A stretch of DNA of 38,975 nucleotides. Origin: a bacterium (lineage in GTDB: Bacteria > Campylobacterota > Campylobacteria > Campylobacterales > Sulfurimonadaceae). Every line of letters starts with the position of its first letter. Position 1 is the first letter of the stretch. Shown in pieces: positions 28,352-37,007 of the stretch. The notes under the pieces are model-generated. The model had not been told where the DNA came from. It searched no databases and saw nothing but the letters and a program-made list of their open reading frames with translations. The position numbers and the translations under genes are program-made. The stretch lies in assembly GCA_018825665.1 (NCBI GenBank), contig JAHJEG010000030.1, forward strand, positions 1-38,975, in the 5' to 3' direction.

Positions 28352-29416
28352 TTAGTCTCCAATGGCCCATATATCAAAAGGCAGCATCTGCACTTTTGAA
28401 AAAGGGTGTGAGATCTTTCCTTCCGTATTCATAGTTATCGCGGTTACTTTTTGTATCTGATAGGTAAAGATGAATGCTTCAATCTGCTCTATCTTCTTAA
28501 AAAGTGCCCGCTCATCCGCAAAAGGCATGCAGAGCAGGACTTCATTGGCATGTGGAATGTAAAAATCGATCCCGTCCGCATAAAAGCAGGTGCTGTCTGA
28601 TTTTAAAAGTTCTAAATATATCATATTTTCAAAGAGTCTTCCAAAGTTCTTGTCAACCGTCAGTGCTGTTTTTAAAGATATATCACATAAATAAAGTTTT
28701 TTGGTAGCCTTGGGATGGTCGATTTTTTCCAGCTGGTGTATGTATTTTTTAGACACAAGATTTTCATAGGAGCGGTAAAGCTTGTCTTTTGATATTCTTC
28801 TGCTGCTTTTGAGTCTCTCGTATATAGTATAAGGGGAAGTTTTTTGAGCCATCATCTTTGCACAAAAACAGAGTATGTCAAACTCCATTGGATCCAGTGC
28901 ATACTTGAGGGTTTTTTGTATGTATATATTTCTCTCATCCGAATTCACCTTATGCATAGAGGGAAAACCTCCAAGCTTGAAAAAGTGATTTAAGGCACTT
29001 GAATCGTATTTGTGCTCATAGGCGAGAAACTCTTCGTAATCCAGAGGATAGAGCCATATATTTGTCAAAAAATCCATTTCGTAATGATTTTGTGCACAGA
29101 TAATCAGCTGCGGAACATTAACAACTTTTATCTCGGGAGTGTAGTTGTCCAAAACAAGAGTATCTATTTTATTTGTTTTGCAAAAGCCGGAGAGCTCTTT
29201 ATTGAGTTGTGCTATATTTATTCTGATATCTGAACAGTCTATAAAAAGATAAGCGTTTTTTTTAAGGGAGAGGAGATAGTTCTTTACGAGTTTTGTTTTG
29301 CCGCTTTGGGTAATGCCGTTTATCTGATAACTGGCCCCTTCGAGGAAAATCTTCCTGTCATGAAACTTATCCAGATGTATATCGGTTTTGTAAAACTCTT
29401 CTAGTAGAATTTCCAT
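28352..29416 (-). CDS. AAA-type ATP-binding protein (COG1373-like)
   Basis: The start is taken as ATG 29416 with AGGAA upstream, giving 354 residues; the frame stays open to 29629, but that runs into the divergent promoter region. It shows a Walker A GITQSGKT near residue 35, a Walker B-like IDTLVLDN, and a C-terminal winged-helix plus nuclease-like region resembling DUF4143 (LYRSYENLVSKKYIHQLEK, FENMIYLELLK, CFYADGIDFYIP). Proteins of this family are widespread orphan ATPases, sometimes linked to toxin-like functions; no physiological role is established. The pairing with rnhB may be only positional. Confidence 0.7.
   Translation of the reverse strand: MEILLEEFYKTDIHLDKFHDRKIFLEGASYQINGITQSGKTKLVKNYLLSLKKNAYLFIDCSDIRINIAQLNKELSGFCKTNKIDTLVLDNYTPEIKVVNVPQLIICAQNHYEMDFLTNIWLYPLDYEEFLAYEHKYDSSALNHFFKLGGFPSMHKVNSDERNIYIQKTLKYALDPMEFDILCFCAKMMAQKTSPYTIYERLKSSRRISKDKLYRSYENLVSKKYIHQLEKIDHPKATKKLYLCDISLKTALTVDKNFGRLFENMIYLELLKSDSTCFYADGIDFYIPHANEVLLCMPFADERALFKKIEQIEAFIFTYQIQKVTAITMNTEGKISHPFSKVQMLPFDIWAIGD
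28546..28558 (-). repeat. Dispersed motif copy 9 (ATTCCACATGCCA)
   Basis: Full match inside the ATPase gene (Ile-Pro-His-Ala-Asn). Confidence 0.7.
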
Positions 29417-29429
29417 AAAGGTTCCTGAA

Positions 29430-29439
29430 AGTATATAAT
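29430..29439. promoter_or_regulatory. Overlapping divergent -10 boxes (ATPase gene and large lipoprotein)
   Basis: The plus strand has TATAAT at 29434-29439 and the minus strand TATACT at 29430-29435. These overlap in the gap between the ATPase start (29416) and the lipoprotein start (29526), so the two transcripts could exclude each other. A second plus-strand candidate, TATAAA, lies near 29510. Confidence 0.35.
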
Positions 29440-29525
29440 TTAATTTAACAATTTTACAGTAATTTAATATGAAACTAATAAATCTAGGAGTAAGATTATG
29501 CAATCTAGGTATAAAAGGATTTGAC

Positions 29526-32500
29526 ATGAAACTTAAAACGTCCTTGGTTGCCAGCACTTTGGTGCTAGGCTTAACTTTTGCAATGCTAGGCTGTAGCGGG
29601 AGTTCGAGTAGCGATTCTACGACGGACACTCCGACGCCAAGTTTGAGTACCAGTTATACTTCTGTTTCGGGAACCACGGGTTCCACAGATACAACTTCTA
29701 CTCTTGGAACGCTTTTTTCATCTTCAGTGACTCCCGCAGAGACCATAGAGGGTACAGCGACACTGATAGTGGATACAAGCAATGACGGACTCTTCGGCAG
29801 TGATGATGCCAAATACAGCACTCCTGTAATCAACGGTTCATTCTCATTTGATGAAGTGTCTGTTTTAGAAAGCGGTGCTACAAAAGCACAGTTGACAGTT
29901 GTAAAAGAGGGTTTTGCACCTTATGTCAGAACCATCTCGCTTACACAGGATAACCCTCTTACGGTATTGGCGGAAATCGGCAAAAAACCTGTATTGACAG
30001 AGGTTATAAAATTGCCTGATGCAAATACAACTGCGAGATTAAGCTCTTTCGTAAAATTCGGTGTTACCAAATCAAGCACCGGGATAAGCTCCTTTTCAAA
30101 GCTTATGTCTCTTTCTGAATTTAAAGCAGAAGCCGATTTGAATCTTACACAAGAGGGTGCACTCAGCGAATCGGTCATACCGACAGGCTCTTTCCCTTCG
30201 GATGTTACGAGCGTAACGGCTAACTTACAGGCATTTGACTCTACGGATGCGGAAGATTTCGAGTATTTTCCGGGTTCATTGTCAGGTCACGGAAAACCTG
30301 CAGTTGGAGCCAGTGCGACTACAGACACAACTGAGCTTCCTCTGGAATCTGCAGGTTTTGACATGATAAGCCTCACAGACCAAAACGGCGAACATATAGA
30401 CCTGCAGCCGGTAGCAGCTTCAAAACTCCTCTCTATGGGCGTGTTTGACGGATGTACAGGTATGCAGTGGACGAGATATATCACTTCGGCTCAGGCAGAC
30501 GTGATAAAAGCATGGGGTGATGACGATAACACTACCGCAGGTTTTCAGGTACCTATCTGGAGTAATGATAACTCTACGGGTACATGGGCGTATATCGGTC
30601 TGGCAGATGCTTTTGACCTAAACGGTTCAAATCCTTATTTTCAAGTATGTGTAGACAGTAACTGGCAAGGGTATCTCAATTGTGATTCTACTATCTCTAT
30701 AGAACAGCCTAAACAGTTGTGTATAGCCGCAGTAGACCAGGACGGAAATCCTATCGGGGGCGTGAGCGTATACGGTCGATTGGGAACAGGCGGCAACTAT
30801 GCCAATACCTATTTGAATGCGACAACCGGTAAGGGAGTCTTAGGGCTTACTACAGGCGTGCCGAGTGACTGGACACTTACGTACAGCGGTTCCATCACAG
30901 GGTGGAGCAGTGCAGGGATCGACAGCAGTCTGGCGGTTGTATCTACGACTACAGGATGTGATTATGATCTGAATATTACAATTGATAATCCATACAGTGC
31001 CGAGATAAGAGTAAGAGCGTATGCGATGAATGATGATACCAACTCTACTCCATTGGCAAATGCAAGAGTAGGTTTGAGCTCGAGCAACTACGCTGACTAC
31101 TACAGCAGATCGGCATATACAAATGTAAACGGCGAAGCTGTATTTGCAGTAAAACCAAATGTCGCATATGTGGCTTCTTACAAAGCAGGAACTTCAAACG
31201 TAAATGTTAACAGCGCCGTTGTAGCTCCGGAAACTGCAGATAGCGGTGTCTATGCCTCAGTAGAAGTAAAAGACGCAAATGTAGCTCCAAGTGTATATAT
31301 ATACACAAACAGATCCCAATTGACGGATCAGGCAGAGACTTTGGGCTTTACAATATCGGCAAGTGACAGAAACGGTGATACATTGACGCTGAGTTCTCTT
31401 AAATTAAACGGAACGACGCTTGTCAAAGATGTTGACTACAGCGTAAAATCTTCTTACTCTTATGCAGGTTCATTGTATATACAGGGAGTATTGGATTTAA
31501 ATGCAAGCACAGTGAGTGCTATCGCTCCGACATCATTAAGTGTGGGCAGTTATTCACTCTCAGCAGCAGTTACGGACAGTAAAACTCCGACGACACAAAG
31601 TGTTTCTTTTAGCGTCAATGCAAATCAGGCACCTGTCATCGGTTCTATTTATTTAGTAGATCCTACGGGACGATACTATTATGTAAGCGGTTCTATCCCT
31701 GTTGGAGATTATACCGTTGTCGTATATGCGTATGATCCAGACGGTGACGTGGTTACGAAAACTATGGCGATAGACGGTTCTGATGTTACGGGAGTTGCAA
31801 CTTCTTTGGCTCAGGGAGACCACAATATCACTGTAACGGCGACAGATTCAAATAGTCTGAGTTCTACTAAAACAGTAAAAGTTTTTGTAGGTAACCATAA
31901 ACCGGTAATCAGATCAGCAGGCGCAAGCAAATATAAAGTTGATATAACCGTTCCTGAGACATTCAAACTGTACGCATATGTATCAGATGCTGAAAATGAT
32001 CCTTTAACGGTAAAAGCAAAAGATGCGAACGGAACCGTATACGATCTTACAAGACTATACTCTTATGATACGAAATATGTCAGTGCGGCTATAACCTTAA
32101 CAGAAGCAAAGGCTGCTAATGTATTTACCATAGTTGCAAATGATGCAGACAACAACAGTACGGCTGTAACTGTAAGCGTCGAGTCTTTCGCTACAAATAA
32201 AGCTCCGATTTTCACAACGGAACTTACTGCTATGACGGTAAACATAAATGAAGCCCAAAACTTCAGCTGTGTTGCTGAAGATCCTGAAGGTACGTATGTG
32301 ACCTATGAATGGAGTTTAAACGGTGTCGTTCAGTCAGATACAGATACGACATTTGCGCATACATTTACCTCTACAGGAAGCAATACATTAAGCTGTAAGG
32401 CTACAGACGGTGATGGAAAATACTCCACATCGAATGCTTCTATATTTGTAATTGACCCTACTGTGTCGGGCGTATTAACTGTTCATACAGGATTACAGGG

Positions 32501-34118
32501 ACTTATCGTCAGTAAACACAGTGTGACAAACTATGCTCTGATGGATGAAAAAGTGACGGATGCCAACGGCGATGTTACCTTTAATGTTGTCGGAGACAGA
32601 ACTACCTTTGCAGTATCCGCATGGCCTGGAATGGAAGTAAGTGCCGCCTTTATCATGGATATGCTCAAAACTGACTTGGAATGGCAGGCTCTATATAACT
32701 GTATGGACAGCAATGTGACTGAATGTGCCACTGCAGACTGGTGTGCGCTGAGCCAAACAGATACTATAGAAAACTGGATATGGGACATTACAAGAGATGT
32801 GAATGATACCCGTCCTCTTGCATCAAGCGTAGATGTTTTACCAGCAGACGGTGTTATCTCTGAGACTGAGCTCTACACAGGCGCTCTGTATCTTTTAGAT
32901 GCAAACGACGATAACAAGTTGACTTGGTCAGAAATCAACGGTGAAGACAAAGATGTACACATGGAAGTGTTTGCAAACGTTCCTGTTAGAGAATACTACA
33001 TAAACTTCTCGCCAATGGGCATGGATCAAAAATACCAGATTGAGTATGAGAGTGAGATGTGTATGGATAGTTTTGATGCAAATATAACGATTACGGGACT
33101 TACTCCTGAAACATCGCATGAATTACAATCCAGCGGAAGTGCTTATGCTTATGGTTATGGCGTTTATGCTGACGCTAACGGAACTATTAGCGTTCCAATC
33201 TATGTAAACAGACCGGGAGCAGATGCTAAGTATACAATACTCTTCAAAGGCAAAGAAACAGCCCAAACAGAGTGGAATTACTATCTGCTTAAATCTAAAA
33301 CAGAAGCTGAAATTAAAGCAGGCATTACGCTTAGTGCTGATTCCTTTGGCACGGCGGATACAAATGTAACTATTACAAACAGCGCTACAGAACGTCTTAC
33401 AAACATAGATGTTTACAGCAATGGATTATGGGTTGGAGCTTCCAACATCACAACGATAGATTACAATGCCAGCGGTGAATTCAGTGTATTTACAGACTCC
33501 AGTTTTACATACAGTCTGGACGGATACGAGTCACTTAATGTTGATGGTACGTATGTAAACAAAAATCATTACAAATACTACACTATCGATCCTCTGACAA
33601 CCAGCGCTTACAGTGCCGTGGATTATCCTCACTTGGCTGTGGATCTTACATTTGATCTAAAAGGCAACTGGCAACTTTCGGGAGATGAGATGTCTGAGGT
33701 CAACGTGGTATCGTTTGGATACAACAAATATGCTTATGTAGACGCGAGCATGAATCTAAACATAAATATCAACTGGACAGTCGCACCTAGTTCGATGCCT
33801 GATATAAATATTACTGCGGTAGCTCCAACTGCTATTGTGGCTGATATAACTGCGATTGAAGCGGCATCGGGTGATACGAGCGTATATCTCGATGTTGAAG
33901 ATTTCAAAGGTATTACGGATGAGACAAGCTTTTTAAATGCGGCAGCAGGTTCAACACAGCAAAATATAGGTGAGCTTGGATACCGTTATGTCGGATTTGA
34001 AAAATGGTTGTATGATGCTTATGCAACTGCTTATTCAGCAGATGTAAATACAAGAACAACTAAGCGAGCTTCGGTATTTAGCATAGGGTATGATACTGAT
34101 AAACTTTTCGCAAAATAG
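29526..34118 (+). CDS. Giant Ig-like-repeat surface lipoprotein with an EF-hand
   Basis: From ATG 29526 (AAAGGA upstream) this is 1530 residues. A signal peptide with lipobox MLG-C23 is followed by a Ser/Thr-rich linker, and carboxypeptidase-regulatory-like beta domains occupy about 60-570. Four Ig/cadherin-like repeats begin at about 583, 699, 790 and 890, each opening with an N-x-x-P motif (NVAP, NQAP, NHKP, NKAP) and containing D-x-[DE]-[GN]-D type calcium positions. A canonical EF-hand loop, DANDDNKLTWSE, spans 1125-1136. The chain is Asp/Thr/Ser-rich with few Cys. It is probably a calcium-stabilised surface adhesin or matrix protein. The gene precedes a secreted subtilase by 13 bases, which may process it. 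The function is unknown. Confidence 0.75.
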   Translation: MKLKTSLVASTLVLGLTFAMLGCSGSSSSDSTTDTPTPSLSTSYTSVSGTTGSTDTTSTLGTLFSSSVTPAETIEGTATLIVDTSNDGLFGSDDAKYSTPVINGSFSFDEVSVLESGATKAQLTVVKEGFAPYVRTISLTQDNPLTVLAEIGKKPVLTEVIKLPDANTTARLSSFVKFGVTKSSTGISSFSKLMSLSEFKAEADLNLTQEGALSESVIPTGSFPSDVTSVTANLQAFDSTDAEDFEYFPGSLSGHGKPAVGASATTDTTELPLESAGFDMISLTDQNGEHIDLQPVAASKLLSMGVFDGCTGMQWTRYITSAQADVIKAWGDDDNTTAGFQVPIWSNDNSTGTWAYIGLADAFDLNGSNPYFQVCVDSNWQGYLNCDSTISIEQPKQLCIAAVDQDGNPIGGVSVYGRLGTGGNYANTYLNATTGKGVLGLTTGVPSDWTLTYSGSITGWSSAGIDSSLAVVSTTTGCDYDLNITIDNPYSAEIRVRAYAMNDDTNSTPLANARVGLSSSNYADYYSRSAYTNVNGEAVFAVKPNVAYVASYKAGTSNVNVNSAVVAPETADSGVYASVEVKDANVAPSVYIYTNRSQLTDQAETLGFTISASDRNGDTLTLSSLKLNGTTLVKDVDYSVKSSYSYAGSLYIQGVLDLNASTVSAIAPTSLSVGSYSLSAAVTDSKTPTTQSVSFSVNANQAPVIGSIYLVDPTGRYYYVSGSIPVGDYTVVVYAYDPDGDVVTKTMAIDGSDVTGVATSLAQGDHNITVTATDSNSLSSTKTVKVFVGNHKPVIRSAGASKYKVDITVPETFKLYAYVSDAENDPLTVKAKDANGTVYDLTRLYSYDTKYVSAAITLTEAKAANVFTIVANDADNNSTAVTVSVESFATNKAPIFTTELTAMTVNINEAQNFSCVAEDPEGTYVTYEWSLNGVVQSDTDTTFAHTFTSTGSNTLSCKATDGDGKYSTSNASIFVIDPTVSGVLTVHTGLQGLIVSKHSVTNYALMDEKVTDANGDVTFNVVGDRTTFAVSAWPGMEVSAAFIMDMLKTDLEWQALYNCMDSNVTECATADWCALSQTDTIENWIWDITRDVNDTRPLASSVDVLPADGVISETELYTGALYLLDANDDNKLTWSEINGEDKDVHMEVFANVPVREYYINFSPMGMDQKYQIEYESEMCMDSFDANITITGLTPETSHELQSSGSAYAYGYGVYADANGTISVPIYVNRPGADAKYTILFKGKETAQTEWNYYLLKSKTEAEIKAGITLSADSFGTADTNVTITNSATERLTNIDVYSNGLWVGASNITTIDYNASGEFSVFTDSSFTYSLDGYESLNVDGTYVNKNHYKYYTIDPLTTSAYSAVDYPHLAVDLTFDLKGNWQLSGDEMSEVNVVSFGYNKYAYVDASMNLNININWTVAPSSMPDINITAVAPTAIVADITAIEAASGDTSVYLDVEDFKGITDETSFLNAAAGSTQQNIGELGYRYVGFEKWLYDAYATAYSADVNTRTTKRASVFSIGYDTDKLFAK

Positions 34119-34131
34119 CATTGAAAGAGGG

Positions 34132-36636
34132 ATGAAAACCTCTTTTGAGCTCCTTATATCTCTTATCTTCGTTCTTATCTTCACTGCTTGTGAAGATAAG
34201 AACACTTATTCTCCAAATCCTGAAACCACTATAAAAGAACACTTCGCAATACTCGGCCCGATCAGTGAGGGCAATGTAAGCATTCGTGTATTTGGTACAG
34301 ATGAGATTATCTACACGACCAAAACCACCGCTCTAACAGACAGCACAAGTGAATTGAAGTGGAACCAATATGATGTAGGTTCTTTTGTAGTGGATTTTAA
34401 TGCCAGCATGGATTTAGACACCTGGCTTTATACGGAAATAAGCTCCGGCGAAGATGTAGACAGCGATGATGATGGGATAGTAACGATGCCTGCAACTCCT
34501 TTAAAAGGAGTGATGAAAGCTTATTGCAGACTTGAAGACTTCAAAAGTTCAAAGCTCATCGTAAATATGTTTACAACGATAGGCGCACAGTTTTATAGAG
34601 ACAGGAACAAACAGTTCCTTGCTCTTGAGGAATATCTCAGCAGTTTTGCAAAAACCGTTTTTGTAAAAAGTGTAGACACAAATGACGGAATTGACTATAA
34701 AGATTTATATTCCTACATACCTAATGAGACACAAGAGAACTATTTAATCTCGCCAAATTTGTATAAAAATCTTTTGAAGTATGGCGTGATGGATGCGCTT
34801 CTCAATGATGACAACATCAGCGCACTGCTGCTATCTGACGATGACAATGACTCTCTAAGTCTTTGGGATGAGCTTTTGTATGATTCTTCACCAATCCTTT
34901 GGGACACGGATTCGGACGGTATTGATGATTTTACAGAGATTGAGAGCGGACTGAACCCGGCTTTAAAAGACAGTGATTATGACGGGATAGATGATAACGA
35001 TGAGAGAGTACTCTATAAAACTAATCCGTTAAATCCCGACAGCGATGAGGATTATATACCGGATGGAATCGAGATAATACATCTAAGTGATCCTCTTGAT
35101 GCCGATGAAAATAACAATGAAACGGCGGACGGCCTGGACGGTGATCCCTTTTTAATCTATCAGTGGCATATCAAAAGTTTAGGTGAGCTGATAAATAATA
35201 CCGCAGGAGTATCTACCGTTCTTGGAAATGATTTAAATATCTTGGATGTATATCATAGAGTATTGGGAAATGCAAACGGAGAAAAAACAATAGTGCAGGT
35301 GATAGATACGGGAGTGGAACTTTTGCATGAAGATATTGAAGTGGATTTAAACAACTCCTATAATGCAGTAACCGGCTCAAACGATCCAACGGCAACTGCA
35401 GGCGTATCGCAGAGTGACCCCACTTCACCTTTGAACAGCGGTCACGGCAATGCCGTAGCGGGTATTTTGGCAGCCAAAACGAATAACGGTCTGGGAGTGA
35501 GAGGCATTATCCCAAGAGGTGTGATTGCCGGGAGTAACTGGCTCGAAGATCAGACTTTGGGTGAACTAGAGAGGGTCTGGTACTCCCAGATAAATGATCC
35601 AAGGATAGTGGTATCAAATAACAGCTGGGGAGCCTACTATCTTAAAGACACAAATTATGAAAGACTTTTGGCAATTGCAACCGCACAGCTGCGCAATGAA
35701 AAGGGAAAAATCTTTACTTTTGCCGCGGGGAACTCAAGAGAGGAATACGGAAATGCAAACTTGTCATATCTTGGCAATAACCCTTATGTAATCTCTGTTG
35801 CATCACTAAACCATGAAGACAGATATGCCTCATATTCAAATCCGGGAAGCAATATATTGGTCTGTGGATACGGAGGTGAACATTATTATACGGCTCCGAC
35901 TATTATGACAACGCTTTTGATGGGGGAATCATACTATGAAAGTGAATTAAATGGGGAAAAGGGGGTTGTAACCGTAGATGAGGATCTGGAAAAAAATTAT
36001 ACCTATGCGATGAACGGGACGAGCTCTGCTACTCCAATGGTAAGCGGTTCAATCGCATTGGCAATCGATGCCTGCCCGGATTTAACATGGAGAGATGTAA
36101 AATGGCTGATAGCAAATACATCGACAGTAGTAGACGCTGCGAATAAAAGCTGGATAAAAAACGGTGCCGGACTGATGCATAGTATAGATTACGGCTATGG
36201 AAAAGTGAATCCTCTTAAAATGATAGATGCATGCCGTTCAAAATATTTTAAAACAATGCCGCCTGTGCAATATCTTCAGGCAAGCGTGTCAGACATCAAT
36301 ACCGTTATCCCCGATACAAATACAACAGTAATACAAACAGTAAAGGTGCAAGAGAACCTGAGCATTGAATGGATAGGCTTGACGATTGATACAGACCATC
36401 CCTTTGCAGGCGACTTGGAGATTAGTCTGACATCTCCTATGGGCACCAAAACATCTATCATAACTCCTAATGAAGTTAATTTTGCAGGCTATAACGGGGG
36501 TTTTCGATTTGGAAGCGTTGCCTTTGTGGATGAAGATTCTCTTGGCATGTGGAAAATTGAAATTACCGACAGACTGGAGCATGACCAGGGTATGCTTAAA
36601 AATATAAAAATTGAAATACACGGATATACAAGATGA
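34132..36636 (+). CDS. Subtilisin-like (S8) lipoprotein protease with TSP3 calcium repeats and P-domain
   Basis: From ATG 34132 this is 834 residues: lipobox FTA-C20, then a unique region to about 230. Asp-rich thrombospondin type 3-like calcium repeats follow at about 240-340 (DTDSDGIDDFTEIESG, DSDYDGIDDNDE, DSDEDYIPDGIE). The S8 catalytic domain has Asp392 (VIDTGVE), His438 (SGHGNAVAG) and Ser631 (NGTSSATPMVSG). A C-terminal proprotein-convertase P-domain (about 700-834, HPFAGDLEISLTSPMGT, MWKIEITDR) completes the chain. This is a kexin-like architecture tethered by lipid to the envelope. It is co-transcribed with the large lipoprotein and overlaps the next small gene (ATGA). A TTCCACATGCC copy encodes part of the P-domain (GMWKIEI). 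Confidence 0.92.
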   Translation: MKTSFELLISLIFVLIFTACEDKNTYSPNPETTIKEHFAILGPISEGNVSIRVFGTDEIIYTTKTTALTDSTSELKWNQYDVGSFVVDFNASMDLDTWLYTEISSGEDVDSDDDGIVTMPATPLKGVMKAYCRLEDFKSSKLIVNMFTTIGAQFYRDRNKQFLALEEYLSSFAKTVFVKSVDTNDGIDYKDLYSYIPNETQENYLISPNLYKNLLKYGVMDALLNDDNISALLLSDDDNDSLSLWDELLYDSSPILWDTDSDGIDDFTEIESGLNPALKDSDYDGIDDNDERVLYKTNPLNPDSDEDYIPDGIEIIHLSDPLDADENNNETADGLDGDPFLIYQWHIKSLGELINNTAGVSTVLGNDLNILDVYHRVLGNANGEKTIVQVIDTGVELLHEDIEVDLNNSYNAVTGSNDPTATAGVSQSDPTSPLNSGHGNAVAGILAAKTNNGLGVRGIIPRGVIAGSNWLEDQTLGELERVWYSQINDPRIVVSNNSWGAYYLKDTNYERLLAIATAQLRNEKGKIFTFAAGNSREEYGNANLSYLGNNPYVISVASLNHEDRYASYSNPGSNILVCGYGGEHYYTAPTIMTTLLMGESYYESELNGEKGVVTVDEDLEKNYTYAMNGTSSATPMVSGSIALAIDACPDLTWRDVKWLIANTSTVVDAANKSWIKNGAGLMHSIDYGYGKVNPLKMIDACRSKYFKTMPPVQYLQASVSDINTVIPDTNTTVIQTVKVQENLSIEWIGLTIDTDHPFAGDLEISLTSPMGTKTSIITPNEVNFAGYNGGFRFGSVAFVDEDSLGMWKIEITDRLEHDQGMLKNIKIEIHGYTR
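36543..36555 (-). repeat. Dispersed motif copy 10 (TTTCCACATGCCA)
   Basis: Full match inside the subtilase P-domain (Gly-Met-Trp-Lys on the gene strand). Confidence 0.7.
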
Positions 36637-37007
36637 ATAAAATACTATTACTGCTTATTATGCTCTTTGGATCTGCAAATGCCGAGTATGAAAAACTAAA
36701 AGAGTATAAACAAAATTCTAAAAATACTTTAAACAAGAGTCAAAAAAATACTTCTGAAGCATCAGAAATGGAAAAAAAATACAAAAACTATATAGAGATA
36801 AGCTATAAAGATATAAATACAATGAATACAGAGCAACTGGAAGAAAAATACGGTATTTATCTATGGCTGTGCATAGCAGATGGAATATGTGTTTTTAAGA
36901 GCAAAAAAAATCAGGATATGGATTTATTGATACAAACAATACAAAAAGAAGAGCCCGATATTGACAGAGTAAAAAAATATTATATGGATCAATTTAAACC
37001 ATTTTAA
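36633..37007 (+). CDS. Small exported protein of unknown function
   Basis: A 124-residue protein with a clear signal peptide (about 1-17, cleavage after SANA), then a Lys/Asn/Ser-rich helical stretch and a C-terminal region with two Cys (WLCIADGICVFKSKK) that could form a disulfide, ending in a helix. No family is recognised. Its ATG overlaps the subtilase stop, so it is probably co-expressed and might be an inhibitor, chaperone or partner of the protease or large lipoprotein; this is inference from position only. A strong stem-loop follows. Confidence 0.75.
   Translation: MNKILLLLIMLFGSANAEYEKLKEYKQNSKNTLNKSQKNTSEASEMEKKYKNYIEISYKDINTMNTEQLEEKYGIYLWLCIADGICVFKSKKNQDMDLLIQTIQKEEPDIDRVKKYYMDQFKPF

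Follow-up and report, generated by a model that had tools for sequence, protein, structure and literature searches.

A lipoprotein P-domain subtilase encoded with a putative detached prodomain and a giant lipoprotein in the Sulfurimonadaceae

Overview

The three genes described here, P1, P2 and P3, most likely encode a giant lipoprotein, a lipoprotein subtilase carrying a P-domain and the detached prodomain of that subtilase. They lie in a 38,975-nucleotide stretch of DNA (contig JAHJEG010000030.1, here called the window), and this assignment is more specific than that of an earlier sequence-only reading, which had proposed a three-gene exported system of a calcium-binding lipoprotein, a kexin-like protease and a small inhibitor or partner. 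Because the closest solved relative of P2 is the Aeromonas sobria protease ASP, because P3 resembles a prodomain and because small genes of this type adjoin subtilases in other genomes, P2-P3 most likely works like ASP and its chaperone ORF2. We consider it probable that P2 is a subtilase with a separately made folding helper and inhibitor of the ASP-ORF2 kind, and that P1 is co-expressed with it as a likely client or anchor.

Locus organization

P1, P2 and P3 span positions 29526-37007 of the plus strand (Table 1). Direct reading of the sequence places 13 bases between P1 and P2 and a 4-base ATGA overlap between P2 and P3. The stem-loop that follows has 13 pairs and a folding energy of -13.1 kcal/mol (z -3.98), which was equalled by 0 of 200 shuffles; the gap, the overlap and the strong closing stem-loop of the sequence-only reading were thus all confirmed. 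As this structure is without a T run and is absent from the terminator scan output, it stands as a strong stem-loop, while its function as a terminator is unproven. The claims that all three products are exported, that two of them are lipid-anchored and that the first two carry calcium motifs also held: inspection identified lipobox-like contexts for P1 Cys23 and P2 Cys20, a signal peptide in P3 and acidic TSP3-like repeats in P2, and the loop DANDDNKLTWSE was found in P1. A minus-strand ORF at 28352-29629 overlaps the start of P1 only via an early alternative GTG, and by inspection its likely start is near 29418. Ribosomal protein genes lie downstream of the three genes both in the window and in a second locus with the same set (L054).

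Table 1. Features of the P1-P2-P3 locus (window coordinates)
Feature	Position	Strand	Description or basis
P1	29526..34118	+	Lipoprotein of 1530 aa (Cys23) with PKD/Ig-like and EF-hand-like parts; may be client or anchor
P1 residues 903-975, PKD/Ig-like domain	32232..32450	+	Sub-threshold in window; two orthologues exceed the PKD_4 cut-off
P1 residues 1125-1136, EF-hand-like loop DANDDNKLTWSE	32898..32933	+	Present in window P1
P1 last 16 residues, C-terminal motif F/L-SIG-Y/L-D-xx-K-L-F	34068..34115	+	Resembles several orthologues
P2	34132..36636	+	834-aa lipoprotein subtilase; Asp392, His438, Asn534, Ser631
14-bp perfect inverted repeat within P2 signal-peptide codons	34171..34203	+	Repeat and shuffle analysis
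P2 residues 235-340, TSP3-like acidic calcium-type repeats	34834..35151	+	By inspection
P2 residues 383-690, Peptidase_S8 catalytic domain	35278..36201	+	Pfam
P2 residues 746-828, P_proprotein (P-domain)	36367..36615	+	Pfam
P3	36633..37007	+	124-aa exported protein; putative external prodomain/chaperone-inhibitor of P2
P3 residues 52-118, beta-alpha-beta-beta-alpha-beta prodomain-like core with Cys80 and Cys86	36786..36986	+	Predicted
P3 C-terminal tail DQFKPF, aromatic last residue	36987..37004	+	P2 active-site entry predicted by analogy with ORF2
Stem-loop 3' of P3	37011..37039	+	Folding-energy test

The P2 protease

P2 matches Peptidase_S8 (E-value: 5.7e-37) and P_proprotein (PF01483, E-value: 8.7e-13) above the Pfam cut-offs, and the catalytic Asp, His, Asn and Ser are, by eye, intact in 11 aligned P2 proteins. 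Its TSP3-like region gives weak CglD and MtsD matches. The closest PDB entries are those of ASP (3hjr, E-value: 4.8e-38; 3wqb, E-value: 1.1e-37), followed by furin (8.4e-29) and kexin (4.6e-26). The term "kexin-like" used in the sequence-only reading therefore fits the architecture of P2, a catalytic S8 domain and a P-domain, but not its predicted specificity: P2 Tyr503 and Ser545 align to furin Asp258 and Asp306, which we take to be the acidic S1 residues responsible for furin's preference for Arg. P2-like subtilases were found at E ≤ 1e-30 in just 24 of 397 genomes of the phylum, and this type of protease is therefore itself a minority trait.

P2 also matches the NCBIfam model for the Treponema denticola protease PrtP (denti_PrtP, NF033595; E-value: 2e-17), and the dentilisin system has a similar cast: in parts of one report, a lipoprotein subtilase, a larger lipoprotein that is cleaved in a PrtP-dependent manner and a small partner are encoded in one operon (PMC8167434). 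By analogy, P1, P2 and P3 might form a stable surface complex in which the large lipoprotein is cleaved, its fragments stay bound and P3 is a structural subunit like PrcB. We regard such a complex as unlikely, since the denti_PrtP score of 63.1 bits misses the equivalog cut-off of 300, P3 resembles a prodomain, P2-P3 occurs without an adjacent P1 (see below) and the order prcB-prcA-prtP given in the same parts of that report (PMC8167434) differs from P1-P2-P3.

The signal-peptide codons of P2 contain an inverted repeat (Table 1) whose length was reached in 0 of 300 synonymous-codon shuffles. Perfect stems of at least 8 pairs occur within the first 60 codons of 6/10 P2 genes and of 7/121 other ORFs, counts in which the G030 and G059 P2 genes are near-identical and from which (the 121) the alternative start of the window P2 was excluded. 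Three further P2 genes (L053, L055 and G056) form long stems only with G-U pairs, and that of G029 forms none. Compared with synonymous shuffles, folding energy has z < -2.7 in six of 10 P2 genes and in one of six P1 starts. The repeat may tune P2 relative to P1.

P3 as a candidate prodomain

Searches of Pfam, NCBIfam and PDB with the P3 sequence returned chance-level matches only, and its relation to prodomains emerged instead from comparisons of fold and profile. An AF2 model of P3 built from a 4-row alignment (pLDDT 72.2, pTM 0.60) has the beta-alpha-beta-beta-alpha-beta order of the prodomain topology. When this model was compared with PDB using Foldseek, no match reached E ≤ 0.001, the first rank was ORF2 (3wqb_B, E-value: 0.016, probability 1.00), ranks 2-4 were PC1/3 prodomains and rank 6 was a subtilisin propeptide; rank 5 was an unrelated elongation factor. 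In VIA-align the PC1/3 prodomain scored Z 7.1 and ORF2 Z 5.9, and RRM domains scored Z 5-6, so these values do not decide the fold. Taken with the profiles below, the model, which is of moderate confidence, points to a subtilase-prodomain fold for P3.

The family with the most matches among ten P3 proteins was ORF_2_N (PF18492), which matched three of them. All three matches fall below the cut-off of 29.2 bits, the relatives matched in the searches scoring 11.5-28 bits, and the window P3 is unmatched; P3 is therefore not filed in this family. Two profiles were built, one from 9 P3 proteins (A5) and one from ten small proteins, of which nine are subtilase neighbours and one is an orphan (A4). 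When aligned with hhalign, A5 and A4 match with a probability of 93.3 (E-value: 2.7e-7). Two A4 members, the neighbour L068 and the orphan L067, pass the cut-off of the Fervidolysin_NPro-like family (PF22148), and a search of PDB sequences with A4 returned nothing useful. A5 alone finds the small subtilase neighbour of G016, which is not one of its rows (E-value: 2.5e-7). Across the phylum, A5 has matches in 9/397 genomes, including four weak places (G288, G242, G420 and G378); that in G420 adjoins a subtilase, and the region read around that in G288 is without one.

Small genes beside other Campylobacterota subtilases

In 99 genomes, ORF_2_N matches 15 places at E ≤ 1, and 7 of these adjoin or fall within a subtilase ORF: upstream in G041, G043 and G070, downstream in G098, G059 and G030, and within the chain in G066 (those of G070 and G098 being judged from subtilase coordinates). 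None of the 15 reaches the family cut-off, and the best match (G096, E-value: 4.5e-6) does not adjoin a subtilase. Matches at E ≤ 1 were also counted, without comparison of their positions, in 5/14 control genomes; the scores are therefore at chance level, and it is position that is taken as evidence.

Two sets of subtilases were examined for neighbours. The first consisted of those found at E < 1e-39, with weaker ones added only where an ORF_2_N match adjoined. A prodomain-like small gene adjoins 14 of the 16 subtilases at E < 1e-39, those of G065 and G096 being without one. The second set comprised all 23 further subtilase ORFs of the phylum search, read in 22 regions outside profile building (606 ORFs); these regions are partly non-independent, as a single genus, through four genomes, contributes eight of them, L126-L128 come from the genus of A4 rows and several are from genera close to A4 rows. 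Here, 18 of the 23 subtilase ORFs are directly adjoined by a small profile-matching gene on the same strand, which in one case (L116) is upstream. At E < 0.05 the combined profile gives 18 matches among the 606 ORFs, every one of them a direct subtilase neighbour; four (L115, L130, L131 and L117) are found at this threshold by A5 alone and the others via A4. No matching neighbour was found for the subtilases of L111, L112, L113, L132 and L129, the last of which stops at a contig end. Two subtilases, each paired with a small prodomain-like gene, are arranged in tandem in both L063 (G090) and L126 (G456).

In four of the related proteases whose genes adjoin a small gene, 22 (G041), 34 (G043), 49 (G009) and 47 (G090b) residues separate the lipobox Cys from the catalytic start, which would leave little room for an internal prodomain. 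The G065 subtilase has approximately 33 residues before its catalytic region and yet has no small neighbour, which means that limited space is no proof that a partner is encoded separately. In G066, a 576-aa subtilase ORF (L074 133-1863) has a weak ORF_2_N-like stretch (12.8 bits, E-value: 0.175) before its catalytic domain. It is possibly an in-chain form of the prodomain; the stretch was absent from a later family search at E ≤ 0.1.

These distances bear on the role of P3. Approximately 324 residues precede the catalytic region of P2; no prodomain family was recognized there at E ≤ 1, and the AF2 model of the N-terminal 345 residues is poor (pLDDT 44.3), so P2 may yet contain a prodomain of its own. 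The retention of so long a region would suit a P2 that is folded by its own N-terminus, with P3 acting purely as a periplasmic inhibitor that guards the cell, and parts of a study of a malaria parasite describe a propeptide-like subtilase inhibitor that stands alone (PMC6993865). Given the short N-termini of the four related proteases above, we think it improbable that P3 is without a folding role.

The sequence-only suggestion of an "inhibitor or partner" can accordingly be narrowed: the fold match, the positions of ORF_2_N matches and the profile matches suggest a detached prodomain of the ASP-ORF2 kind. As such, P3 would cross the inner membrane on its own and would fold the P2 catalytic domain, and its C-terminal tail would then occupy the P2 active site. 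Once P3 had been cleaved or lost, P2 would be an active, lipid-anchored and probably calcium-stabilised protease that prefers large hydrophobic residues before the cut. P3 has an aromatic last residue, Phe or Tyr, in 11 of the 12 close loci (Arg in G098b), which by analogy with ORF2 is suggestive of a tail that blocks the active site. Because of this aromatic C-terminus and the loss from P2 of furin's acidic S1 residues, P2 is predicted to cleave after large hydrophobic residues (Phe/Tyr) and not at dibasic sites.

Recurrence of the gene set and the role of P1

P1, P2 and P3 are contiguous in six genomes (the window, L054, G057 (= L055), G056, G030 and G136) and, so far as broken contigs show, also in L053 and G059. 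As the set recurs, the arrangement is not a mere product of chance, and the proposal of a three-gene system survives the search for adjacent homologues in other genomes. The P3 gene directly follows P2 in all 12 close P2 loci (the window, L053, L054, G057, G029, G056, G030, G059, G042, G136 and two in G098). In G042, a 283-aa remnant of P1 precedes P2; the P1 position there (L047 6066-8469) holds a 345-aa subtilase ORF and, by inspection, a small prodomain-like ORF upstream of it, together with the remnant. The complete set of G136 (L092) is found in another family, and ORFs that by inspection resemble transposases lie nearby, as would be consistent with horizontal transfer.

No Pfam domain was found above cut-off in the window P1, and no Pfam family was found in the orthologue L045. 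PKD_4 scores above its cut-off of 27 bits in two orthologues (30.2 and 27.3 bits), both of which also have sub-threshold EF hands. In several orthologues a short C-terminal motif follows a variable linker; the motif is similar in L054, G136, G056, G030 and the G042 remnant and is absent from L055. P1 is rare: matches at E ≤ 0.001 occur in 8/99 relatives and 5/397 genomes of the phylum, counts to which the remnant in G042 and weak, short matches in two other genomes (G096 and G160) contribute. Setting these three aside, P2 is present in all seven genomes with P1 (G000, G030, G056, G057, G059 (on two contigs), G098 and G136). As P1 turned up solely in genomes with P2, it is plausibly a client that P2 trims or matures, or an anchor of P2, and we hold this with modest confidence.

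Two genomes have P2-P3 without an adjacent P1. The pair of G029 is preceded, at the P1 position, by an unrelated lipoprotein of 669 aa. G098 has two P2-P3 pairs and has P1 on a different contig, and a bacterial alpha-2-macroglobulin-type gene (L050 7849-12999) lies directly upstream of one pair. These arrangements would suit a functional separation in which P2-P3 is a general surface protease unit and P1 is an adhesin or stalk that merely shares its operon. Such a separation is a serious possibility that we nevertheless consider less probable than a functional link; against it stands the restriction of P1 to genomes with P2, although linkage accounts for most of that co-occurrence. On the preferred reading, P1 would be co-expressed with P2 as, most likely, its client or anchor.

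Export route

Of the 14 genomes that have a P2 homologue at E < 1e-39, 12 carry a gene for T2SSG, compared with 49 of 85 others (Fisher p 0.039, for genomes that are not independent); the two P2-homologue genomes without it are G057, which is 67% complete, and G016. The unit lies directly upstream of gspG in G030, G059 and G042, and one large ORF intervenes in G056. It does not adjoin T2SS genes in the window, L054 or G057, and the T2SS operon of the window genome is on another contig. In G073 and G090, a GspK-like gene after the pair matches the gene at the GspK position of G030 (blastp E-values: 1e-10 and 2e-5, respectively). The G073 gene matches NCBIfam GspK (E-value: 0.01) and that of G090 does not, and neither matches a T2SS family in Pfam. 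In L063 (G090) this gene follows the two tandem pairs, and blastp found no gspK in the gspG-gspF stretch of G090 (L083, 12000 of 13961 bases). The association of the unit with T2SS is suggestive, and we infer that type II secretion is the likely route of export to the cell surface.

Comparison with known systems

According to parts of a 2022 survey, ASP is the exception, as other subtilases rely on an N-terminal propeptide that serves as intramolecular chaperone (PMC9549277). Among the P2-like Campylobacterota subtilases examined here, prodomain-like small genes adjoin most members of both sets and lie upstream of a few others (G041, G043 and G070). It is conceivable, and we propose it tentatively, that several Campylobacterota families restrain lipoprotein subtilases with separate exported prodomains whose tails sit in the active site and match its specificity, encoded on either side of the protease gene and, in perhaps one case, in-chain; here a giant lipoprotein client would be added, and release of the prodomain after export would trigger maturation of this partner at the cell surface. 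If this is true, the divide between in-chain and separate prodomains could be tested as an evolutionary series, protease cleavage specificity could be predicted with the partner's last residue as a guide and a function would be assigned to a group of short exported ORFs that are unannotated.

The sequence-only reading did not recognise the combination of genes. No description of the three-gene form was found in open-licence PMC literature; the P2-P3 core has a known relative in ASP-ORF2. Four systems can be compared with it. First, the Fervidolysin-type prodomain (PF22148) is like the small proteins in that two A4 members pass its cut-off; it differs in that most of the loci read encode the small protein by a gene of its own, G066 being the possible in-chain case. 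Second, furin and kexin share with P2 an S8 catalytic domain followed by a P-domain, but P2 is without the acidic S1 residues and no prodomain family was recognized in its chain at E ≤ 1 (the N-terminal model being poor). Third, dentilisin (PrcB-PrcA-PrtP) of T. denticola likewise combines a lipoprotein subtilase, a larger lipoprotein and a small partner in one operon; unlike it, P2 misses the PrtP equivalog cut-off, the gene order is different and P3 is prodomain-like.

The fourth and closest system is ASP-ORF2 of A. sobria (PDB 3hjr and 3wqb). Parts of one report describe ORF2 as a chaperone encoded just downstream of ASP and required for its active form, and as an inhibitor of ASP whose C-terminus lies at the catalytic site (PMC5638518). 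Unlike ASP, P2 is a lipoprotein and has TSP3-like repeats as well as an additional N-terminal region. P3 differs from ORF2 in falling below the PF18492 cut-off, in having two conserved Cys and in ending with an aromatic residue where ORF2 has Lys, and a giant lipoprotein gene lies ahead of the P2-P3 pair. In common, the two systems have a P-domain subtilase, ASP being the nearest solved relative of P2, and a small protein encoded immediately downstream, P3 having a predicted prodomain-like fold with ORF2 as its top match. The P2-P3 core is thus related to the known ASP-ORF2 arrangement, which has been described in a few other bacteria.
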